The position numbers and the translations under genes were made by a program. The notes beneath the pieces were generated by a model. It was not told where the DNA came from and ran no database searches. It worked only from the letters and a program-made list of their open reading frames with translations. From contig JAKFYD010000025.1 in assembly GCA_021731025.1 (NCBI GenBank), forward strand, positions 1 to 51,208: 51,208 nt of DNA, read 5' to 3'. The DNA comes from Pseudobdellovibrionaceae bacterium. Lineage in GTDB: Bacteria; Bdellovibrionota; Bdellovibrionia; Bdellovibrionales; Bdellovibrionaceae. Positions 37,663 through 50,200 of the stretch are shown piece after piece (the stretch's first letter is position 1; every line of letters begins with the position of its first letter).

Positions 37663-38760
37663 ATGAAAACCCAAGTACGTGTGCCCATGAACGGAATAAT
37701 GATTTATCTGCTTCTTTTACTTCTTGCAGGACTTTTAAGTGCTTGCCAAAAATCTAATGATTCCTTTTCACTCATGTCAGAGCAAACAACTTTTAAACAA
37801 AGCACAGAAATTGTTCCGCGAAAAATTGATATTCTTTGGGTCATCGATAACTCAGGCTCAATGGAAAATTCTCAAGCGAATATCGCCAATAATTTCCGTT
37901 CTTTCATTGAAAAATTCCAGCAAAAAAATTATGACTTCCAAATTGGCGTTACGACAACTGACGCTTATACGGCTTATTATTCCAATAACAACAATCTTTC
38001 CAAATTGCGAAGCGGCGCTCAGATTGGCGAATTCCCAACTGTCTACAGTGATTCTGGCGTCACTCTCATCACCAGAGACACTCCTAATATTGAAGCTACT
38101 TTTTTAACAAATATCAAACAAGGCATTTTTGGAAATGGTGACGAGCGTGCCTTCATGAGCATGCAGCACACTTTGCAAAATCCATTGAATGCCGCATTTA
38201 AGCGCCCTGGGTCTTATCTCGCAATTATTATCGTGAGTGACGAAGAGGATTTTTCACACAACGACATCAGTGGCTATTATCCTTCAGAAAATTACAATGA
38301 CCCAAAAATGTATCCTGTGCAAAACTACGTCAACTTTCTGGATGCACTCACAGAGAGCACAAGCACCGTTAGAAATTACTCGGTAAGCTCCATCTATATT
38401 CCTGATGCCGCCTGCTTAACTCAACTGCAAGCTGGCTTCGCGAAAAAAATCTCTACACGCTATCCTAAACTTTCCGAGCTCACCGGAGGGGTAAAAGCTT
38501 CCCTCTGCGGAAATTTTGCTGATTCTCTGCAATTAATTTCTGACACTGTTTTGGATTTAGCCTCAGTCTTTCCATTGGGACGCGAACCTATAGCCGAAAC
38601 GATTTTAGTTACGGTAAATGGTACGGTCGTTCCTCAAAATGCAACCAACGGTTGGACTTATGATTCCGCTACAAATTCAATTTCATTTCGTGGCGCTGCA
38701 GTTCCACCTGCAGATGCTAATATCTCAATCACCTTTGATCCCAAAACAATTAAGCAATAG
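37663..38760 (+). CDS. VWA-domain lipoprotein, CglB-like surface adhesin
   Basis: This 365-residue lipoprotein has a signal peptide with lipobox LLSAC (Cys28). A von Willebrand A domain (about 52-250) carries the MIDAS motif DNSGSM in DILWVIDNSGSMEN and a second acidic patch IIIVSDEEDF. A C-terminal region of beta-sandwich type follows (ILVTVNGTVVPQN, ISITFDPK). Myxococcus CglB, also a VWA lipoprotein, is the surface adhesin of the Agl/Glt gliding machine. The adjacent TolQ/TolR/Glt-like genes support that identification, although similarity to CglB itself was not computed. It is the first gene of the operon, with Shine-Dalgarno GGAGG. Confidence 0.8.
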   Translation: MKTQVRVPMNGIMIYLLLLLLAGLLSACQKSNDSFSLMSEQTTFKQSTEIVPRKIDILWVIDNSGSMENSQANIANNFRSFIEKFQQKNYDFQIGVTTTDAYTAYYSNNNNLSKLRSGAQIGEFPTVYSDSGVTLITRDTPNIEATFLTNIKQGIFGNGDERAFMSMQHTLQNPLNAAFKRPGSYLAIIIVSDEEDFSHNDISGYYPSENYNDPKMYPVQNYVNFLDALTESTSTVRNYSVSSIYIPDAACLTQLQAGFAKKISTRYPKLSELTGGVKASLCGNFADSLQLISDTVLDLASVFPLGREPIAETILVTVNGTVVPQNATNGWTYDSATNSISFRGAAVPPADANISITFDPKTIKQ

Positions 38761-38786
38761 GACAACAACGATGAAAAAGAGGAGAT

Positions 38787-39386
38787 ATGAAACCGGCAGC
38801 TTTCAAGAAACAAGAATCTAAATGGTATATTCTTAGGGGTGAAAATAAGTTCGGTCCTTTTGAATATGGCGCCATGCTGGCCATGATCCAAAAAGCCGAA
38901 CTCTTCGACTACAACTACATATGGGCGACGGGAATGGAGAACTGGGCCATGCTCGGCGAAGTCGAAGAATTCTCTAAAGATCGTCTCGCTTTGTTGATAC
39001 AAAGCAAGGATCCTATCAGCCATGCATTCCTGCAAAGGGGCGCCGACCGCGCAGATGTGAAAATTCCTCTCTTCGCTCACAGCGATCAGCATTTTTTCGA
39101 TGGAGACTGTGTTTCAATCAGCGACAACGGCGCGCTGGTATTGCTTAACAACCCTTTGCTTCTTCCCGGTCAAAATATTCTACTGCACTTTAAATCGACA
39201 GAATTCACGGAAAACAGCTTTAATGTTTACGCACAGATTGTCCGAAAGAATTTCAGTAGACAAAGACTTAACGTGAAATCTGGTTTGCATTACGCAGTTC
39301 GCTTCACCGAAATGCAAGAGACAGGTAAAAAGGAAATTCAAACTTTAATTAAGAATTATCACGAGTACAGAAAGGACGCAGTATGA
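38787..39386 (+). CDS. GYF-PilZ protein, candidate c-di-GMP adaptor
   Basis: This 199-residue cytoplasmic protein combines two domains. Residues about 12-60 form a GYF_2 domain (KWYILRGENKFGPFEYGAML, then ATGMENW). Residues about 85-195 look like PilZ, with RGADR (RxxxR form) and SISDNGALV ([D/N]xSxxG form), so cyclic di-GMP binding is plausible. In Myxococcus, GYF and zinc-finger modules sit on GltJ and receive signals from the gliding regulators. Here GYF is a separate protein fused to PilZ. It overlaps the TolQ-like gene by four bases (ATGA), so it is made with the motor. The function is inference from domains and context. Confidence 0.72.
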   Translation: MKPAAFKKQESKWYILRGENKFGPFEYGAMLAMIQKAELFDYNYIWATGMENWAMLGEVEEFSKDRLALLIQSKDPISHAFLQRGADRADVKIPLFAHSDQHFFDGDCVSISDNGALVLLNNPLLLPGQNILLHFKSTEFTENSFNVYAQIVRKNFSRQRLNVKSGLHYAVRFTEMQETGKKEIQTLIKNYHEYRKDAV

Positions 39387-40102
39387 TGACATTTATCAAT
39401 TTTATGAACTCTTCAGGGGTAGTCGGATGGATTATCCTTGCGACTGGAGTAGCTGGTATTGTTTTGATCGCTGAACGATCTAAAACCCTATACTTCGAAT
39501 ACGGTATAAACGTCGACGAGTTTATGAACCGCATACAAACTTTGGTTCTTGGAAAAAAATTGGACGAAGCTTTGGTTCTTTGTTCACAAATGGATAAAAA
39601 ACCATTGGCTCGAGCTTTTAAAACTATTTTGGAAAAGGCAGACCGTGACGATGAAACTATTTTTCAAAGTCATGACATCGCAATGGCTGAAGTGATGCCA
39701 CTTTACACTCGCCGTTTGCATTACCTTTCCATGTTGGCCAACGTGGCAACTTTGCTTGGTCTCTTAGGAACAATCCATGGTTTGATTCTTTCCTTCGAAG
39801 CGGTGGCGCAAGCCGACCCTGCGGCGAAACAACATTTGTTAGCGAACGGGATTTCTGTTTCGATGTATACGACAGCATTGGGTCTTGCGGTGGCGATTCC
39901 GGCAATGGTGTTTTTTTCATTCCTGACAGCAAGACAAAATCAGTTGATCGAGCAAGCGACTGAAAAATGCTCGAAGCTGACCGAGATATTAACAAGTTCA
40001 CACATGCCTCAGTTGACTCGCAATACGGTGTTTCCTGACACTCCCGTAGGACACAATTCGAATGGACCAACCCCACCGAATCCAAACTCGAAAGCATCCT
40101 GA
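39383..40102 (+). CDS. MotA/TolQ/ExbB proton-channel protein (AglR-like)
   Basis: This 239-residue inner-membrane protein has three transmembrane helices (about 10-30, 112-140 and 158-180). Family motifs are LANVATLLGLLGTIHGLI and SMYTTALGLAVAIPAM, including the channel threonine. With two TolR-like partners it forms a proton-driven motor. In Myxococcus the AglR-AglQ-AglS complex powers gliding and sporulation coat transport. The C-terminus is a proline/asparagine-rich tail. It is 39 bases ahead of the first TolR-like gene. Confidence 0.9.
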   Translation: MMTFINFMNSSGVVGWIILATGVAGIVLIAERSKTLYFEYGINVDEFMNRIQTLVLGKKLDEALVLCSQMDKKPLARAFKTILEKADRDDETIFQSHDIAMAEVMPLYTRRLHYLSMLANVATLLGLLGTIHGLILSFEAVAQADPAAKQHLLANGISVSMYTTALGLAVAIPAMVFFSFLTARQNQLIEQATEKCSKLTEILTSSHMPQLTRNTVFPDTPVGHNSNGPTPPNPNSKAS

Positions 40103-40141
40103 AAAGTGAATGCAGAGTAAGAAAGAAAAAAGGAGTTATTT

Positions 40142-40684
40142 GTGGGAACAAGAAAATTTAAGATAGAACATGCGACTGATTTCGAGCTCGATTTAGCTCC
40201 TCTGTTAGCCGTCATGGTAAAACTTGTTCCCGTACTTTTGATTTCTTCAGCCTTTGTCCAAATGATGATTATTGAAACTGAACTTCCCCAAGTGGTTCAA
40301 GAAGCCATTCAACGTCAAGAAGACCAAAAGAACGAAAAGGCTTCGATCACTTTGGAAGTCAGCACTAAGACCGGTCTTAAAATTGTGATCTTAGACAAAG
40401 GACAAAATAAGACCGACGTTGTTCCCTTTGTCGACGGAAAATTCGATTGGGTGCAAGTTCACGGTAAACTCAAAGAAGTTAAAAAATTGTATCCTGATAT
40501 TTTCAAAATAGATTTGAAACCTGATGAAGATGTTTCTTATCAAGATTTAGTCAAGATTATGGATGAAGCTCGCCGCAGTCGTGATCAGCAAAAATTTCCT
40601 GTTTACGATGCTCAGTCCGGTAAAAATGTTGAAACTGAATACATGTTTCCAGAAATTGTTTTTGCAAACACGTTCGAGGGATAA
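40142..40684 (+). CDS. TolR/ExbD-like protein lacking the membrane aspartate
   Basis: This 180-residue protein has one transmembrane helix (about 18-40) and a periplasmic ExbD/TolR-type domain. The family helix reads PLLDVLLVLL, with the Asp essential for proton flow; here it reads PLLAVMVKLV (Ala23, and Lys27 also inside the helix). The periplasmic part resembles TolR (FKIDLKPDEDVSYQDLVKIM). The start is GTG, with Shine-Dalgarno AAGGAG six bases before. It forms a pair with the next gene, which keeps the Asp. The alignment was done by eye against E. coli TolR. Confidence 0.83.
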   Translation: MGTRKFKIEHATDFELDLAPLLAVMVKLVPVLLISSAFVQMMIIETELPQVVQEAIQRQEDQKNEKASITLEVSTKTGLKIVILDKGQNKTDVVPFVDGKFDWVQVHGKLKEVKKLYPDIFKIDLKPDEDVSYQDLVKIMDEARRSRDQQKFPVYDAQSGKNVETEYMFPEIVFANTFEG

Positions 40685-40687
40685 ATT

Positions 40688-41185
40688 ATGGCACGAAGAC
40701 ATCGCTATCAGCCTCCGGGCAAAAGATCGACCACTTTCAGTCTGAACATCACTTCGATGACAGATATGTTTACTTTACTGTTAGTGTTTTTACTACAATC
40801 CTACAATACATCGGAAGTTCAAATTGAAATGACAGAAGGCCTACGCCTTCCCGCTTCGAACACTTCACTGAATCCCAATGATGGAGTCAAAGTGAACATC
40901 ACTTTGGATTCGATTAAAATTGATAAGGAAGAAATTGGTAAAATCGTTAACAGCCAAATTGACAACAAAGACTTGGACCCTCAAGACACCAGTTTCATCC
41001 TTCCACTCTTCAGAGAGCTGGATAAAATTATGAAAAGCGAAAAAGATAAAAAAATAATTAAAGAAGGCCGTATTCTTCTCCAAGCTGATGCCCGACTTCC
41101 CTATTCGACTTTACGCAAGGTTATGTACACGGCTTCGATGGCAGGTTTTCCCCAACTTAAAATGGTGACGACCGTAGGAAATTAA
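40688..41185 (+). CDS. TolR/ExbD-like protein with membrane aspartate
   Basis: This 165-residue protein has a transmembrane helix (about 22-42) in SLNITSMTDMFTLLLVFLLQ, with Asp26 at the position of the proton-carrying residue of TolR and ExbD. A periplasmic domain follows and ends in YSTLRKVMYTASMAGFPQLK, a family signature. It lies three bases after its paralogue. In Myxococcus, AglQ and AglS are the corresponding two TolR-like subunits; which of the two it matches best cannot be decided by eye. Confidence 0.88.
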   Translation: MARRHRYQPPGKRSTTFSLNITSMTDMFTLLLVFLLQSYNTSEVQIEMTEGLRLPASNTSLNPNDGVKVNITLDSIKIDKEEIGKIVNSQIDNKDLDPQDTSFILPLFRELDKIMKSEKDKKIIKEGRILLQADARLPYSTLRKVMYTASMAGFPQLKMVTTVGN

Positions 41186-41195
41186 GGATAAAAAA

Positions 41196-44100
41196 ATGAA
41201 ATTTGTTTTAACATCATTGATTTTCACCTTAAGCACTCACTCCCAAGCCAAAACGGATGACCGCGGACTATTGCCTGAAATTCGCTCGAACACGAGCAGC
41301 GAAGATGTGAATGAAAAGAACACTCTTAAATCCGAAATACTGATCACCAAAGCTGAATCTAAGGCCATTGAATCTTTACAAAGCATTCTTAAACGAAAAA
41401 AAGGATCTCCCGACGAACCCGATCTTTGGTATCGATTGGCCGAGCTTTATTCTCGTCGTTCAAAGTCTGGCCGCTTCTTTGACCTTTACACGAACGAAAA
41501 AACCAAGCGCTTAAGTTCTGTCCCAGCTGTTGTTGGAAAAAGTTCCGAGTGGACAAAAAAAGCCATCGACATTTACAGCAAAATTGAAACTCAATTCAAA
41601 AATTACCGTGATATGGATTCGGTCTTATTCAATCATGCCTTCGCACTTCAACAAATTGGACAATTGAAAGCGGCCGAAAATCTTTATATTCGCATGATTG
41701 AAACAAAACCAAAATCTCCACTAATGCCTGATGCCCTTTTGGCCCTCAGCGAGCTTCTCTACGATCAAGCCCGCTTTTCTGCGGCTTTAAATTACTTTGA
41801 AAAATTAGAAAATTACAAAGAAAGCCGTGTTTATTCCTACGGTCTTTATAAAATGGCTTGGACTTTCTACAATTTAAAAAATTCTGAAATGGCTGTTCAT
41901 AAGCTCAAAGAAGTTTTGAAACTTAATCCTCCATTGCAAGCAGGCGAAAATTTCACCAAGGGGCACTACCTTCGTAAGGAAGCACTTCGTGATTTAACTA
42001 TCTTCATTGGGGATTCCTACACTGCAACTGAACTTTATTCTTTTTTCAAAAAAATTACCGAAGGTGACGAATTGGGTACAGCGATGATTGATCTCGCTAA
42101 ATTGTACGAATCTCACAGCCGGCATAAAGATCTAAATGTTTTCCTGAATGAGTTTATTTCAAAACAAGAAGACAGTGGTCATGTTGTTACTGCGCACTTG
42201 ATGCTTGTTGATGCCAACGAAGCACTGCGTGCTCGCGACAAGGTTGTCAAACATCTGCAAATCGCCAGCGACCATTGTAAAACGGGTTCATCATGGCGTT
42301 TAAAGCAAAAAGAAACGACCTTGAACGAAGTTTGTATCAAGGAATTCCGCCAAACCAGTTTGGAAATTGCCTCGAAGTGGTGGGACATTTGGCTTAAGAA
42401 TAAACAGCATGTGGCTTTCTCGGAGCTGACTGAAAAAGCTTTCCGGGTAATTCTGGACAATGAAGAAGCTGACAAGCCCGATCTAAAAACTCGTTACGCT
42501 TTGGCTGAATTATTATTTCAATTAGCTAAATATGAAGAGGCCAGCGATCAGTATAAAGTTGTTGGTGACAAAGCCACCGAGTCGGCCATGGCCCACGACG
42601 CCACTTACGGTGCGCTCTACGCAAAAGAAAAAAGTTACGAAAAAGAAAAAAATTCTTTGAAAGACGCCCAACGCAAAGATTTAGCTTTAAATTACATCAA
42701 AAAATTTCCTAAAGGTCAGTACGTTCTTCCTATCAGTTTTAAGGTCGGTCTAATCTTTTATGAAGAAAAAAATTATGATGAAGCTATGAAATGGCTAAAG
42801 CCCATTGCTGAAAACAAGACCAATAAAGAACTTATGGTTAAAGCAGAAGATATCATCTTAGATATTTATAACCTGAAAAAAGATTATGCTGGTCTTAAAG
42901 GTTTGGCCGAAGGCTTCTTGAAGAAAAGTCCCGATGAAGCTCGCAAGAAAAATCTTAAAAAGATCAACGAAGAGGCTCACTACTCTCAAATTCAAGACTT
43001 TTCAAAAACGGCTTCGCAATTGGAAGCTTCGGACAAGCTGATTGAATTCTACAAATCACATCCTGATTCTAAATTGTCACAAACCGCCCATTGGCAGGCT
43101 TTAAGCTTACTGTTTTCTCAAGGACAAAGCGTTCGTGCTTCAGAGCTCGTTTTAGATTATGTTCAAAAATATCCTAAAGATGAAAAAAATCTCGAGGCTC
43201 TCAAGGAATCTGCAAAATCCTTTGCGGAATCTGGCCGTCTTTTAAAATCAGCACAGTTATTAACAGAAATTGCTGAAAAAGATCCAAAAAATAAAATTGC
43301 TCACCTGGAAATGGCTGCAGATTTCTACACTCTGGAAAATAAACCAGCCGAAGCGCGCAAAATTTTTAACTCTTTGCTGACTCAGGTCGATAAAAAAGAT
43401 CGCGCTCGCATGTACAACAAAATCTTAAGCAGCTTTAATGATCGCCAAGACGATCCTGAATACCAAAAAGTTGAAAGCACACTGTTGACCCAAAACATCG
43501 AGCCCTACGCCACTCAGATTTTAACTAAAAAAGCAAATTCACTGCTCAGACAAAAGAAGCATAAAGAAGCTTTTGACCTCGCTCGAAAAATTATGTCACG
43601 CGATTCCAGCGCCGAAATTCGCGCGGAGTCCCGCTTGGTTCAGGCCGAAGTCCTTGAACAAGAATTGTTTTCACAAAGTATCAAATCATCAAAAGAAGAT
43701 CGATTGGCTATGGTCCTAGCCATGAAGACCGAAAAATTAGATAAAGCCCAAACTGCTTATCTTTCAGCGACTAAAATGAATTCTGATCCTAAAATCCAGC
43801 TGCAAGCTTTCCAAGGGATCGATCGCTGTTATCAAAACTACATTGTGAGTTTAAAGAACATTGTTCCTCCGAGCACTTTGTCAGAAGAAGATCAAAAGAC
43901 ACTATTGAACGAGATTGCGAAAATCGTTGGCCCTATGGAAGAAAAACGAAATGACAATTTAAAACAAATTCAAGCTATTGCTAAGAATGCTCTTTCGAAA
44001 GAAAATCAAATCGTATGGGCTGAAATGGCCGTGGAAAATACGCCTCGACCAGTTATTAAATATCCTGACTACCCTCACTTGCAAGTCTTCTTCCCACGGA

Positions 44101-44897
44101 ATTTCGTTGAGAGTAAAGAGAATTGGAAAAAGGTAGAAGTTAAAACCAAGTCTTCTTGCGATCTTAAAAAATGGAATGCCTCTTCGGTATCCAATGTTCA
44201 AAACACCGCAGAAAGCTGTTTCTCGGCTCAGGACTTTAAAGCTCTGGAAAGAGTAGCCCTTGATATGACAATGACCAAAGAGCAAAGACCTCACGGTCTT
44301 TTCTTATTGAGCTTTGTAGCGGAAGCCCAAGGCCAACCCCTGAAAGCTTACTGGCTCATTGAAAAGTATCTTAAGGAAAATCCAAGCAATGCTCCTGCCC
44401 AATTTCAAAAGGCCCGCTTAACTTACAAAATTGACGGATTGACAGCGGCGCTCCCTCTGTTCGGCGAGGTCCTGAACTCGTCAATGACTTCGACAGAAAT
44501 AGAAACTTTCCGTGGAATCAAGGCTTACACCGAGAACAATTTTGAGACTGTTATACAGATCTTCTCGGGATTTCCGAAAGATCAGTTGTATAATTTCAAT
44601 GTGGGACTTTTGTTAAGCGAAGCTTACGCCCAAAAAGGAGACTTAGGTAAATCATTGAAAGTGGTCAGTGAATTTTTGAACCGCAAAGGAACAGATCAAT
44701 TAAACGGGCTGGTTCATCAAGCGCACTTGTTGGAGATGTATAAAAACTCTTCGATGGAAGCCATGGACAGTTACCAAAAAGCTTTGAAGTACGCGAAAGA
44801 AGAAGACATGCGGAATTGGATCGAAAAGAAAATTGACTACCTCAAGACTTTAAATAAAAAAGTGGGGCTCAATGAAAATGGTCGGAGCGAAAAATGA
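41196..44897 (+). CDS. Large periplasmic TPR protein (Glt-type)
   Basis: This 1233-residue protein has a signal peptide (cleavage near HSQA-KT) and is filled with tetratricopeptide-like helical repeats, for example ADLWYRLAELYSRRS-type units around 85, 155, 195, 440 and 640. No catalytic motif is seen. Large TPR proteins (GltD, GltE, GltI class) are periplasmic scaffold components of the Myxococcus gliding machine. It follows the motor genes by ten bases and overlaps the next small gene by four. The exact Glt homologue is not decided. Confidence 0.8.
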   Translation: MKFVLTSLIFTLSTHSQAKTDDRGLLPEIRSNTSSEDVNEKNTLKSEILITKAESKAIESLQSILKRKKGSPDEPDLWYRLAELYSRRSKSGRFFDLYTNEKTKRLSSVPAVVGKSSEWTKKAIDIYSKIETQFKNYRDMDSVLFNHAFALQQIGQLKAAENLYIRMIETKPKSPLMPDALLALSELLYDQARFSAALNYFEKLENYKESRVYSYGLYKMAWTFYNLKNSEMAVHKLKEVLKLNPPLQAGENFTKGHYLRKEALRDLTIFIGDSYTATELYSFFKKITEGDELGTAMIDLAKLYESHSRHKDLNVFLNEFISKQEDSGHVVTAHLMLVDANEALRARDKVVKHLQIASDHCKTGSSWRLKQKETTLNEVCIKEFRQTSLEIASKWWDIWLKNKQHVAFSELTEKAFRVILDNEEADKPDLKTRYALAELLFQLAKYEEASDQYKVVGDKATESAMAHDATYGALYAKEKSYEKEKNSLKDAQRKDLALNYIKKFPKGQYVLPISFKVGLIFYEEKNYDEAMKWLKPIAENKTNKELMVKAEDIILDIYNLKKDYAGLKGLAEGFLKKSPDEARKKNLKKINEEAHYSQIQDFSKTASQLEASDKLIEFYKSHPDSKLSQTAHWQALSLLFSQGQSVRASELVLDYVQKYPKDEKNLEALKESAKSFAESGRLLKSAQLLTEIAEKDPKNKIAHLEMAADFYTLENKPAEARKIFNSLLTQVDKKDRARMYNKILSSFNDRQDDPEYQKVESTLLTQNIEPYATQILTKKANSLLRQKKHKEAFDLARKIMSRDSSAEIRAESRLVQAEVLEQELFSQSIKSSKEDRLAMVLAMKTEKLDKAQTAYLSATKMNSDPKIQLQAFQGIDRCYQNYIVSLKNIVPPSTLSEEDQKTLLNEIAKIVGPMEEKRNDNLKQIQAIAKNALSKENQIVWAEMAVENTPRPVIKYPDYPHLQVFFPRNFVESKENWKKVEVKTKSSCDLKKWNASSVSNVQNTAESCFSAQDFKALERVALDMTMTKEQRPHGLFLLSFVAEAQGQPLKAYWLIEKYLKENPSNAPAQFQKARLTYKIDGLTAALPLFGEVLNSSMTSTEIETFRGIKAYTENNFETVIQIFSGFPKDQLYNFNVGLLLSEAYAQKGDLGKSLKVVSEFLNRKGTDQLNGLVHQAHLLEMYKNSSMEAMDSYQKALKYAKEEDMRNWIEKKIDYLKTLNKKVGLNENGRSEK

Positions 44898-45139
44898 AAT
44901 ACATCAGTTGTGTCGTACTCCTTATTTGTTTTTCCTTAATCTCTCAGGCGCAGAATAAGAAAAAAACTGTGCGCAAGGTTCAAGAGGTCAATTTCGGGGA
45001 AATGAGTCTCAAAGGAACCATTCGCAATCCTGACGGCGCTTTCTTAGTCCAAAAGAAAGGGCTTAAATTTTTGCCTCTGTATGATGTGCAAAAAGATATG
45101 GACGGACGAATTCGCGAGGCTAGTTTTTACGTAAGGTAA
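44894..45139 (+). CDS. Small exported protein of the Glt-like operon
   Basis: This 81-residue product has a signal peptide (cleavage near SQA-QN) and a basic mature start (NKKKTVRKVQEV). A conserved-looking core follows (GEMSLKGTIRNPDGAFLVQK, then DMDGRIREASFYVR). No family is recognised. The four-base overlap with the TPR gene and the short gap to the FHA gene place it firmly in the operon, so a periplasmic linker or chaperone-like role in the machine is plausible but unproven. Confidence 0.7.
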   Translation: MKYISCVVLLICFSLISQAQNKKKTVRKVQEVNFGEMSLKGTIRNPDGAFLVQKKGLKFLPLYDVQKDMDGRIREASFYVR

Positions 45140-45160
45140 CCATCAGAAGGAAGATAGAAA

Positions 45161-46609
45161 ATGCTCACGTTGCTGGTACAACAAACAACATCGAACGGCA
45201 CCAAAAAAACTTGGAAACTTAATCCAGGGAAAGCTATCTACACTTTCGGAACTTCCCGGGTGTCCGACCTCATATCGATTGATCAAGACACTCAAAACTA
45301 TGAGGGCGTCTTCGAATTTCGCAACAATCAGTGGGTTTACATTGATTTCAATAAAGACAATTTTTTACAAAACAAAGCTCCTACCCTTCCCCTAACTAAA
45401 GCCCATACCATCAGCTTTAAAAACTCTCAGATTGTCATTACGCCTATGATTAAGGACGTCGAGATTTTTGAGAGCTTAGAAAAAAATAAGTCAGAACCTA
45501 AAGCAAATACGAAACCTCACCATATTTTCGTAGTTCGCCATTATGGTCGAGTTATTGAAACAAAAACTTTAAAACCAAAAGTTAAATTCCGACCGGCCTC
45601 TGTTGTTGAAAAAGTTGTCGTCGACCCCGTGCCTTCGCAGGAATGGGTCCGAAAAAATTATGGGAACTACGAAATCAGCCAACGTATTATCTATGTTGAA
45701 GACACTTCTCCTCTTTCGAAATTTAAACTCTCGCAAATCACCGATCGCGAGAGCCTAAAGAATATTTCGATTGTTGGAGTTTGCTGCTTGATCTTCGCAC
45801 TGATTGCAGCAGTGACTCCTAAACCTAAACACGATCAAGTTGTTGCTGTTCCGCAAAGCGCGACGAAACTGATTGTTCGCACGGACTTTAAAAAGACCAA
45901 ACAACAAAAACCTCAGGCTGAAAAATCGGTGGCCCAAAAGCAGGCGGCCCCTGCAACTACTCCTTCCACCGCCCCTGCCGGAGGAAAAGTCGCCGGTATG
46001 TTGAAGAGTCTGAACTCAGGCCGCTTAAGCAATTTACTTTCAAAAATTTCAGCCCAAGCCCAAAAGTCTAAAAATGCCATTATTTCTAAGGGTGTTGCCG
46101 CAGGCACAGGTCCCAGTGGACGCGCCCTTGCCGCAATTGGCCCCGTGGATAAATCGGGTAAAGACTGGAGCTCTGACGCTAAAGGAACTGGGGTAACGAT
46201 TTCAACATCAGGTCTTGGCGGTGGAAAATCCATCAATGGCGTTGGTCAACTGGCTGGCGGAAAAGTCGGCCAAGCCGGGGTCGGTTTGATCGAAGACGAA
46301 TCCGAAGTGGTCGGTGGTTTAGATCGCGATATCATTGCTAGCTATATTAAAACTCAGTTAGGACAAATTCTTTACTGCTATGAACGACAACTGAGTGCAA
46401 AAAAAGATCTGTTCGGGAAAGTCGCTGTGCGATTCACAATTGGTCCATCAGGCCAAGTCGAAACACAACAAATTGGTGATACAACGTTAAAGAACGCAAC
46501 CGTCGAAGGATGTATTTTGAACAAGGTTGCCCAATGGAAATTCCCTGCGCCACAAGGGGGAACAAAGGTGAATGTCACCTATCCATTCTTGTTTAAAAGT
46601 ACAAACTAA
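45161..46609 (+). CDS. FHA-TM-TonB-like protein (GltG-like)
   Basis: This 482-residue protein has an N-terminal FHA-like domain (about 10-105; TFGTSRVSDLISIDQDTQNY, a phosphothreonine-reader fold). One transmembrane helix (about 203-222; IVGVCCLIFALIAAVTP) follows, then a long Ala/Pro/Gly-rich periplasmic linker. The C-terminal AgmX/PglI (TonB-like) domain has QLGQILYCYERQL and GKVAVRFTIGPSGQVE. In Myxococcus, GltG has this cytoplasmic FHA plus periplasmic TonB-like layout and connects the motor to the outer membrane. It would transmit proton-driven motion across the periplasm. The FHA call is by pattern only. Confidence 0.8.
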   Translation: MLTLLVQQTTSNGTKKTWKLNPGKAIYTFGTSRVSDLISIDQDTQNYEGVFEFRNNQWVYIDFNKDNFLQNKAPTLPLTKAHTISFKNSQIVITPMIKDVEIFESLEKNKSEPKANTKPHHIFVVRHYGRVIETKTLKPKVKFRPASVVEKVVVDPVPSQEWVRKNYGNYEISQRIIYVEDTSPLSKFKLSQITDRESLKNISIVGVCCLIFALIAAVTPKPKHDQVVAVPQSATKLIVRTDFKKTKQQKPQAEKSVAQKQAAPATTPSTAPAGGKVAGMLKSLNSGRLSNLLSKISAQAQKSKNAIISKGVAAGTGPSGRALAAIGPVDKSGKDWSSDAKGTGVTISTSGLGGGKSINGVGQLAGGKVGQAGVGLIEDESEVVGGLDRDIIASYIKTQLGQILYCYERQLSAKKDLFGKVAVRFTIGPSGQVETQQIGDTTLKNATVEGCILNKVAQWKFPAPQGGTKVNVTYPFLFKSTN

Positions 46610-46624
46610 GACGGAGGCTACAAC

Positions 46625-47410
46625 ATGAAACGACAATTTATTTTCCTCATCGCCATAGGCCTGCTTTGGTCTATGCCTGGGAATGCACAAAGCAAATCTG
46701 CAAAAGTTGAAGAGAAAAAACCCGAAGCGGCGGCTGCGGAATCTGACAAACTGGATATCCAAAAGCTTGAGCAAAAATATTGGTCAGCCAAGGATGATGA
46801 CTTCTCGGTGATTCAGAATCGTTCTTTCGCTAAGGAAAAACGCTGGTACCTATCGATGAATTATGGTGCTCCATTCAATGATCCCAATTCCGTAGGAAAT
46901 GTTCTAGGTCTCAATGTAGGATATTTTTTCAACGAACGCTGGGGTCTGGAATTAAATTACAATCGAGCAAGCTATAAGGATAATGACACGGTAGAGTTTT
47001 TTAAAACCCGACATGGGACAATGCCCGATGCAAACCGCTACGCTGGCGCAACAAGCTTGATGGCTTATTGGGTCCCTATCTATGCGAAGATGAGTTTCGT
47101 AGATAAAAAAATTATTTATTTCGATATGGGATTTGGATTGGGTTTAGGCAACACTTCTTATTATCAACAAAAGTGTAACAGCACTTGTTCGACTTCGACC
47201 TTTGATAGTGTTGATGTAAATAAATCTGCATTTCACTATTCAGTAAATGTCTTTCAGCAGTTTTTTATTTCGAATCGTTGGGCCGTACGGGTTGATTTTA
47301 TGAATCGATGGACTAATGAAGATCGACTCAATTTTAGAACAGCAGAAAGTATCGGCAGCAAAATGATCAATGACACTGCTTTGCAAATCGGTCTTACGTT
47401 CTGGAAATAA
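46625..47410 (+). CDS. Outer-membrane beta-barrel protein (GltA/B/H-type candidate)
   Basis: This 261-residue protein has a signal peptide (cleavage near GNAQ) and a charged helical segment (about 35-65; KLEQKYWSAKDDDFSVIQ). About eight amphipathic strands follow, such as FNERWGLELNYNRASY and FFISNRWAVRVDFMNRW, and it ends ALQIGLTFWK. This head-plus-barrel type is widespread in Myxococcus outer-membrane proteins of the Glt and Nfs systems. A cysteine pair (KCNSTC) near 185-190 could form a loop disulphide. It would be the outer-membrane anchor of the machine. Confidence 0.78.
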   Translation: MKRQFIFLIAIGLLWSMPGNAQSKSAKVEEKKPEAAAAESDKLDIQKLEQKYWSAKDDDFSVIQNRSFAKEKRWYLSMNYGAPFNDPNSVGNVLGLNVGYFFNERWGLELNYNRASYKDNDTVEFFKTRHGTMPDANRYAGATSLMAYWVPIYAKMSFVDKKIIYFDMGFGLGLGNTSYYQQKCNSTCSTSTFDSVDVNKSAFHYSVNVFQQFFISNRWAVRVDFMNRWTNEDRLNFRTAESIGSKMINDTALQIGLTFWK

Positions 47411-47426
47411 CTAGACAGAGGATTTT

Positions 47427-49505
47427 ATGATTTCACTTCATCGCGTATTAACACCAGTTTTGATTTTCAACTTGGCGGCAAGCATTAGTGAAGCTCAAGT
47501 TTTAAAAACGTCTAACTCGGGAAAAAAACCAGCGGCGAACTTAAAAATCAAAACCAGCAAAGTTCCGACTTTTGAAATTCATAAATCAACGACCCAAATT
47601 CCTCGTCTGGATATCGGTGAAGAACCTACTCTGGAATCCCAAGTGACTCCTTTGAATATTCCGACAGCTCCCCAACTAAAAGCATTTCAGATTCAGAAAA
47701 AACAATCACCCAAAGTTGTGGAGCTTGAAAAGAAAAAAAATCCTATCGCTACTGCACCCCCTGCAAAGTCTTTTGCGAACAGCAAAACCTTAGCGCAGAT
47801 TCCCGAGATCAAAGCTTTAAAAGAAGTTACTGATCCAACTGTGAAAGAGCCAAATCTGGAAACGAAAGAAATGGTTACTTTCAAATCCCAAGAATATAAA
47901 ATTCTCGAAGGACAAATTTATTACGAAATGTTGCAAAATTACGAAATGGCCCTGGCCCACTTTTCAGAACTTTTGGGAGATAAAGATTACGGTCATGAAG
48001 CCACCTATCATTATTCCTTAGCTGCAGCCGAATTAGGATTGCCTACAGAAATGCGCACAAACCTATTGAAAGTCGCCAAAGATCAACGCAGCCGCGATTT
48101 ACAAGTTGAGGCCACCAAGTCCTTAGTTAAACACATTGATAAATTGCAGGTCAGCGACGTTAAAGATATCGAAAACTATGTACAAAAGTACGAAGTCGAT
48201 ACTGACAAAGAAGACGCCTACCAATTTTACCGTGCTAAATATTTCCTCGAGCAAGGAAATCTGACTGCGGTTGAAGAATCACTCCAAAATATTGACGAGA
48301 AGTCAAAATACTACCATGAAAGTTTACTGATTCGGGGTTTAAGTCTGTACCGCCAAGGAAAAATCGACGCTGCTGCTGATGCTTTAAATATGCTTCTCGA
48401 TAAGGCAGACCGATCAATCCCCGTTCGCACAGTTTCAGCAATCACTTTGGCGCGAATCTATTTTCAACGAGCAATGTATAAAGAAGCCTTTCTAGCTTAT
48501 GGCCAAGTGGATAAATCTCATCCTTTGTGGCTGCAAGCTATGGTCGAACAAGCCTGGACACAAATTCTTTTGAAAGATTTTGAAGGCGCCGCCGGCAATA
48601 TGTTTTCGCTGCATACGGATTTTTTTAAAAACGCTTTCAATCCTGAAAGCTACGTTGTGCGCACAGTGGGTTATTTGAATCTCTGTCAATTCGGTGACGG
48701 CATGAATGTGCTCAACAATATGGGTCAGCGCTATGCTCCAATGTATGGTCGACTGGCAGGTTTCCAAGAAAAGAAAAAAGCGGCTAAAGATTACTATGAT
48801 CTTGTTCGCACTTGGTTGAAAAGCCCTGATCTTCGCGAGGTTGATGGCGTACCACGCTCTTACATTGTCGAGTTGGCTCGTCATCCCTCTTTCGTGGCGA
48901 TTCAAAAGCAAATTAATAATTTCGAAGATGAAATCACATCTTTCAACAATGTGACTTTAAAATTAGTGCAACGTGAGAAAGACCTAATTAAGAAACAAAC
49001 TGAGGCCAATTCAGAACTCAATAAAGTCCGCATAAAACTGAATGAGCCTAAAGCCGATGTTGCGACGTTAAAAACCCAAGAGACACTTCAACAAAAGCGT
49101 TTAGCGAGCTACAAGTATCAAGCACAAACCGTCAACAAGGCCCGAAACAGCATCAAAGAAATTCGCGAGAAAAGTTTTGCCCGCATCGACAAAGAGAAAG
49201 CCGAAGCCCGTGATCGCGCCGCTGTTGCTCTTAAATCTCGCTACGGCGTTGCGCTAGCTTCGCTGAAAAACGTGCTTGATCAAAGCGAAGTGCTCCAGTA
49301 CGAAATTTACTCTGGCGCCGGTGAGCATATCCGCTATCAAGCCTCAGGTGGCGAAGCTCAAAAACGTAATGTCAATGATACCCCGAAACCTGAAAAAGAT
49401 AAAATCATGAAGTGGAACTTTAAAGGCGAAATTTGGGAAGACGAAATCGGCCACTTCCGTTCTTCCCTGAAAAACGTATGTCCTGCTGATGATGGTGGAC
49501 GCTAA
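47427..49505 (+). CDS. Periplasmic TPR protein with coiled coil
   Basis: This 692-residue exported protein has a signal peptide (about 1-23). A proline/lysine-rich disordered segment (about 25-140) and helical TPR-like repeats (about 155-450) follow, then a long coiled coil (about 500-600; VQREKDLIKKQTEANSELNK). No enzyme motif is present. Such TPR proteins scaffold the Glt machine. The Shine-Dalgarno AGAGGA precedes the ATG. The gene lies 16 bases after the barrel gene. Confidence 0.78.
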   Translation: MISLHRVLTPVLIFNLAASISEAQVLKTSNSGKKPAANLKIKTSKVPTFEIHKSTTQIPRLDIGEEPTLESQVTPLNIPTAPQLKAFQIQKKQSPKVVELEKKKNPIATAPPAKSFANSKTLAQIPEIKALKEVTDPTVKEPNLETKEMVTFKSQEYKILEGQIYYEMLQNYEMALAHFSELLGDKDYGHEATYHYSLAAAELGLPTEMRTNLLKVAKDQRSRDLQVEATKSLVKHIDKLQVSDVKDIENYVQKYEVDTDKEDAYQFYRAKYFLEQGNLTAVEESLQNIDEKSKYYHESLLIRGLSLYRQGKIDAAADALNMLLDKADRSIPVRTVSAITLARIYFQRAMYKEAFLAYGQVDKSHPLWLQAMVEQAWTQILLKDFEGAAGNMFSLHTDFFKNAFNPESYVVRTVGYLNLCQFGDGMNVLNNMGQRYAPMYGRLAGFQEKKKAAKDYYDLVRTWLKSPDLREVDGVPRSYIVELARHPSFVAIQKQINNFEDEITSFNNVTLKLVQREKDLIKKQTEANSELNKVRIKLNEPKADVATLKTQETLQQKRLASYKYQAQTVNKARNSIKEIREKSFARIDKEKAEARDRAAVALKSRYGVALASLKNVLDQSEVLQYEIYSGAGEHIRYQASGGEAQKRNVNDTPKPEKDKIMKWNFKGEIWEDEIGHFRSSLKNVCPADDGGR

Positions 49506-49537
49506 GCTTAAGAATGAAATTAAATGAAGGAGCCCTT

Positions 49538-50200
49538 ATGAAAAACTTAACAAATAAACAACTGAGAATGGGGATTCTTGCTCTCTCGCTGGCCTATTCT
49601 CCCGGCCTGTTTGCCAAAAAATCCGCCCAAGAAGGTTTGGATAAAATTAAAGCAAATATCGAGAATTCAAAGCTCAATGTTCAGGATTACAAAAAGAATT
49701 TGGGCATCGTTGACAAAAATATTTCCGAAGTCGCAAAATCGCGGACTCAAGTCGAAGATCAAAAGAAACAGGTTGCGGCCCAAATGAAAGAAAACCAAAC
49801 CGCCATGAAAAAAATTGAACAAAATGACAAAGAGCTCAATCAGTTGATCGCCGATGAAAAAAATAAGCTCAGTCAAGACGATAAGAAGATCAAAGAACTC
49901 GAAGACAGCATCGCTAAAATCAAAGAAAACCAAACGATTCGCAATAAAAACATCGCCGACTACCAAACTCAACTGACCCAAGTGCAGGAAGAGAAAAAAG
50001 TTTGGACGACCCGCGCTGACGCTCTGAAAGAGCAAGAAAAACAAGTGAACGAAAAATTCAAAACCGTTTCTACCCAGGAAAATGATTGGAAAAACAAAAA
50101 GCGCGGGTACGAAGGCGAAATCTCACGCTGGAATAAAGAGATCGATAAACAACAAAAAGTTTACGACAATTATAAAAACCTAGCGGAAGTTAAGGATTAA
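49538..50200 (+). CDS. Periplasmic coiled-coil protein
   Basis: This 220-residue protein has a signal peptide (cleavage near LFAKKS) and is then almost wholly a Lys/Glu/Gln-rich coiled coil (residues about 25-215). The ATG at 49538 is preferred over an upstream in-frame start because AAGGAG lies at the right distance. It is the last gene of the Glt-like operon and might be a periplasmic spacer. It ends by overlapping the stop of the convergent gene by four bases, so no room for a terminator exists between them. Confidence 0.78.
   Translation: MKNLTNKQLRMGILALSLAYSPGLFAKKSAQEGLDKIKANIENSKLNVQDYKKNLGIVDKNISEVAKSRTQVEDQKKQVAAQMKENQTAMKKIEQNDKELNQLIADEKNKLSQDDKKIKELEDSIAKIKENQTIRNKNIADYQTQLTQVQEEKKVWTTRADALKEQEKQVNEKFKTVSTQENDWKNKKRGYEGEISRWNKEIDKQQKVYDNYKNLAEVKD

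Follow-up and report, generated by a model that had tools for sequence, protein, structure and literature searches.

The window, by which we mean the whole 51,208-nucleotide stretch of DNA that was analysed, encodes a proton motor of the Agl type in which the pore aspartate of the ExbD/TolR family is absent from the first of two TolR-like axle subunits (TolR1) and present in the second (TolR2). This asymmetric Asp/Ala pair is, as judged from the alignments described below, a new form of Agl-type motor. The change in TolR1 is probably functional, since an entire bacterial family has retained it. We lean towards the view that one copy of each subunit would form a heterodimeric axle with a single working Asp in a 5:1:1 motor.

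The sequence-only reading of this DNA had described one TolQ-like gene followed by two adjacent TolR/ExbD-like genes, and both the open reading frames and the profile matches bear this out. TolR1, an AglQ-like protein of 180 aa, is encoded at 40142..40684 on the + strand, with a GTG start at 40142 that is preceded by GGAG. TolR2, an AglS-like protein of 165 aa, is encoded at 40688..41185 (+ strand). Its start lies 3 bases past the TolR1 stop, so linked translation of the two genes is likely. The Pfam family ExbD/TolR (PF02472) matches TolR1 with 66.2 bits (E 3.8e-18) and TolR2 with 52.2 bits (E 8.3e-14), in both cases above the curated cut-off of 25.4 bits, and the match spans the helix and the periplasmic domain.

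The helix sequences are LDLAPLLAVMVKLVPVLLISSAF for TolR1 and LNITSMTDMFTLLLVFLLQ for TolR2, with the core LDLAP-LLA-VMVK in the former versus LNITS-MTD-MFTL in the latter. In a gap-free alignment of the pore region, Pro20-Leu-Leu-Ala23 of TolR1 stands opposite Pro-Leu-Leu-Asp23 of TolR, in agreement with the earlier assignment of Ala (Ala23, codon GCC, 40208..40210, + strand) to the pore position of TolR1 and of Asp (Asp26, codon GAT, 40763..40765, + strand) to that of TolR2. A lysine had also been placed near the pore, deeper in the membrane. Lys27 (codon AAA, 40220..40222, + strand) is indeed present in TolR1, but it is better described as lying one helix turn towards the periplasm from Ala23 and facing almost the same side of the helix. 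The possibility had been raised that Asp17 (40190..40192, + strand) is the actual pore residue. We rejected this candidate because Asp17 lies six residues before the pore position in the gap-free alignment, and because Asn occupies residue 17 in orthologues with a pore Asp. The genome has 11 ExbD/TolR genes in total, four tandem TolR pairs among them, and the ten ExbD/TolR proteins other than TolR1 all have the Asp.

The motor genes belong to a + strand run from 37663 to 50200, whose gene order is kept in relatives within the window's family and more weakly beyond it. The run begins with a VWA-domain lipoprotein-like protein (37663..38760), which by synteny is the Bd1483 equivalent and which resembles CglD and a Bdellovibrio MIDAS adhesin (NF052240, E 1e-17; NF033765 CglD, E 2.3e-11; both below cut-off). 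It is followed by a protein with GYF_2 and PilZ domains (38787..39386; PF14237 and PF07238, above cut-off) and by the TolQ/AglR-like ring subunit of 239 aa (39383..40102; PF01618, E 2.1e-25; TIGR02796 tolQ, E 4.8e-16, below the equivalog cut-off). The start codon of TolQ and the stop codon of the preceding gene share bases (ATGA, 39383-39386), which suggests a tightly coupled operon and a possible cyclic-dinucleotide sensor beside the motor. Downstream of TolR2 lie a large TPR protein of 1233 aa (41196..44897; TPR families and synteny) and a GltG-like, TonB-like transducer with an AgmX/PglI C-terminal domain (45161..46609; NF033768, 106.7 bits against a cut-off of 40; NF033760 GltG, E 3.7e-36, below cut-off). 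Three further genes are assigned to the cluster by synteny: a secreted protein with the appearance of an outer-membrane barrel, a type judged from sequence only (46625..47410), a protein with TPR-like repeats by eye (47427..49505), and a secreted protein that by eye is a coiled coil and is encoded by the last conserved gene (49514..50200). All of these genes are on the + strand.

Four proton motor sets of the Agl/Glt-like kind occur in the genome, and this locus is one of them. We place it in an Agl-motor context because the GltG-type C-terminal domain is matched above cut-off and because an aglR insertion in the equivalent operon of Bdellovibrio bacteriovorus impairs biofilm predation (PMC2277423). 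Like AglR-AglQ-AglS of Myxococcus xanthus, it has one TolQ-like and two TolR-like genes in tandem, adjoining Glt-type genes that include a GltG-type transducer. However, a conserved Asp has been described in both AglQ and AglS (PMC9389320), and the window's first TolR lacks it. In the TolQ-like subunit, Thr130 and Thr164 align with TolQ T145 and T178, so the ring threonines are kept. The membrane Glu of ExbB/TolQ (E176 in E. coli ExbB) is replaced by Val159. This position is non-acidic across the whole clade, and many outgroups retain the Glu (ISEAM).

To assess conservation, we collected twelve near relatives from public genomes and then widened the set to orthologues at the level of the family, order, class and phylum, which yielded 128 distinct TolQ-TolR1-TolR2 triples. 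One TolQ gene and two TolR genes occur together in every one of these sets. The pore Asp of TolR2 is present in 128/128, and that of TolR1 is absent in 82/128. With respect to TolR1, the sets fall into three classes: Ala or Ser with Lys (n=59, the window's family), Ala, Ser, Gly or Asn without Lys (n=23, nearly all other Bdellovibrionales), and Asp (n=46). A check of the Ala/Lys pattern in related predators had been suggested; Ala or Ser together with Lys was found in 59 of 59 distinct sets of the window's family, Lys27 is invariant in that family only, and the pore position does not vary freely among relatives. Within the family, the TolR1 helix is the best-conserved part of the protein (89%, versus 59% for the remainder). 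We therefore rejected chance, an error of sequencing or assembly, and decay as explanations, given also the ten paralogues in the genome that keep Asp.

A few exceptional loci deserve mention. In relatives, 19 of 20 TolR paralogues carry Asp and the remaining one carries Asn. In L210 (G053:C2:67285-68292), an Agl-type TolR paralogue that belongs to a different motor set, Asn occupies the pore position (PFINLL), which appears to be another kind of Asp loss within the window's family. L152 (G296:C61:734-4217), a distant TolR1 orthologue, has Asn both at the pore and at the position of residue 17; its pore Asn is probably an independent loss. One complete genome of the window's family (G044, presumably B. 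exovorus JSS) has no set of the window's type and retains a single Agl-type pair (L216).

The history of these changes was investigated with a tree built from TolQ, TolR1 and TolR2, from which the trait columns were left out. The Lys class forms a single clade in this three-protein tree, with support 100. A quick free tree suggests three to four changes of pore state, but a tree in which all Asp-less rows except L152 are held together has a likelihood higher by 23.5 and is not rejected by the AU test (p-AU 0.836). We therefore set aside several independent losses of Asp, with only the Asn of L152 standing apart. The simplest account would be one loss of Asp (the Asn of L152 apart), followed by one later gain of Lys. 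The tree points to Asp as the older state of TolR1, because outgroups and paralogues in the same genome carry it. It is important to consider that the Asp class might represent a different motor set. However, when Asp-less genomes were searched with an Asp-class profile, it reached the same single locus, with no comparable second copy, and Asp-bearing and Asp-less TolR1 are therefore 1:1 orthologues.

The asymmetry does not depend on Lys, as the Ala state predates that with Lys; since a class exists that lacks both Asp and Lys, the asymmetry probably came first and would have been refined by Lys later. Gln37 of TolR2 appears together with Lys27 of TolR1; it lies at the helix's outer end, a position held by Lys in nearly all orthologues from outside the family. 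Along with Tyr162, Ser160 and Val159 of TolQ it marks the Lys class, and these substitutions are inseparable from ancestry because they share the single origin of that class. A shift at residue 17, from Asn (44/46 Asp-bearing orthologues) to Asp (81/82 Asp-less TolR1), accompanied the loss of the pore Asp. For this change (Asn17Asp) and for Thr29 of TolR2, independent-contrast tests had too few independent events.

With these observations in mind, we propose that a TolQ ring would enclose an axle of one TolR1 and one TolR2, such that only TolR2 would contribute a protonatable Asp and each axle would have one working carboxylate instead of two. TolR1 would be a fixed neutral partner that retains its periplasmic domain. 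By the published 5:2 rotary model, a single-Asp axle would make one step per ring subunit rather than two, and hence five instead of ten proton-driven steps per turn (PMC9389320). In the window's family, Lys27 would bring a fixed positive charge to roughly the level of Asp26 of TolR2, and would probably tune the pKa of this Asp or gate it through a Lys-Asp pair. This heterodimeric, single-Asp interpretation is plausible and partly supported. It is favoured by the constant association of one TolQ with two TolR genes, the invariant Asp of TolR2 beside the frequent lack of one in TolR1, the 1:1 orthology of the two TolR1 forms, the constrained helix, the retained ring threonines, the fit of the Asp-less rows to one clade, the single origin of Lys and the close spacing of the two TolR genes. 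E. coli TolQ-TolR and ExbB-ExbD share with the window's motor the ring and single-helix axle, the Pro-x-x-(Asp/Ala) helix and the periplasmic fold, but their axle is homodimeric and carries two Asp. A further argument for our proposal is that, in E. coli TolQR, the surroundings of these two Asp differ at any given time: one is at the TolQ threonines, and the other faces the cytoplasmic cavity (PMC12215075).

Structure prediction bears on the fold rather than on the assembly. We supplied AlphaFold with fused TolR1-TolR2 and TolQ-TolR1-TolR2, with stops read as Gly, as all three genes are in one frame. Both models are of low confidence (pTM 0.34 and 0.36, respectively) and too weak to judge a complex of a five-subunit ring and two axle helices; neither contains a reliable interface. 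When the fused TolR1-TolR2 model was searched with Foldseek, it matched TolR (5by4, prob 1.00, E 2.7e-3) and ExbD (8vgc, 8p9r) with modest E-values, and the predicted periplasmic fold is of the expected TolR/ExbD type. No solved structure matched the TolR1 profile by sequence.

TolR2 homodimers alone could power the motor, which counts against a heterodimer. TolR1-TolQ complexes would then be proton-dead and would compete with the working motor or form a separate peptidoglycan anchor, so that TolR1 would be a regulatory or brake subunit. In keeping with this, the Asp is needed in MotB, TolR and ExbD. Moreover, whether AglQ and AglS form a heterodimer or homodimers is stated to be unknown (PMC9389320). 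However, we consider a brake unlikely, as TolR1 is as constantly present as TolR2, its helix is strongly constrained, and the Asp-bearing orthologues that occupy its slot suggest that it had a core role before Asp was lost. It is less probable still that the carboxylate was relocated, with Asp17 releasing protons at the cytoplasmic end of the pore. The shift at residue 17 speaks for such a relocation, but the association is built on very few independent changes, L152 retained Asn at this residue, and Asp17, which stands before Pro20 where the helix starts, is almost two turns from the pore position and faces a different side. Lys27 might instead be the working residue, a positive axle charge that, much as in GldLM, pairs with an acidic residue of the ring. 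GldL-GldM also has an axle subunit without the canonical Asp, its key carboxylate being Glu49 of the GldL ring (PMC8986121), whereas the second axle subunit of the window's motor keeps the Asp. In favour of this reading, Lys27 is invariant in the window's family. Yet the alignment reveals no conserved membrane-embedded Asp or Glu in TolQ of that family, and Lys is missing from the Asp-less class outside it; we regard this explanation as very doubtful. Finally, decay of TolR1 into a subunit whose residue has no function is largely refuted and merits almost no credence, since, despite variation among Ala, Ser and Gly by lineage and the absence of the whole set from G044, the clade has small residues only, no return of Asp was seen, the reading frames are unbroken and no part of TolR1 is better conserved than the helix.

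By gene order and position, the window's locus corresponds to Bd1473-Bd1483 of B. bacteriovorus. In G003, which we take to be strain HD100, synteny places the orthologous operon on the minus strand, at 1.39-1.41 Mb, and its TolR1 (L043) has the same Ala and Lys. Bd1481 has been designated aglR, and Bd1483 is a gliding-cluster gene with an insertion point at +1022 (PMC2277423). This point fits the 353-aa VWA gene, and TolR1 would therefore be Bd1480. The operon is one of four tonB/agl-like operons that differ in regulation (PMC2797640). Bd1480 ('aglQ') is reported to be surface-induced and lowered in cGAMP-deficient mutants (PMC9140294), and this published 'aglQ' thus appears to be the Asp-less protein. 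The open-licence papers found on the locus treat bd1480 as an ordinary aglQ proton-channel gene, and the passages retrieved from them do not mention the missing Asp.

These results bear on the gliding motor of Bdellovibrio, described in 2026 as a 'major open challenge' (PMC13104615), and they indicate that the marker gene bd1480 encodes the Asp-less subunit. It is conceivable, as a tentative extension of our proposal, that nature has produced a single-carboxylate rotary motor with an obligate heterodimeric axle, a neutral residue and a fixed, buried Lys having replaced the Asp in one of its two helices. If true, such a motor would take half as many proton steps per turn, and its built-in asymmetry may determine the direction, the step size or the gating. 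In models of MotAB, ExbBD and TolQR, the two axle Asp are taken to be equivalent. A natural, conserved pair with a single proton-binding subunit would make this assumption, as well as the question of the AglQ/AglS dimer, testable in a cultivable organism.
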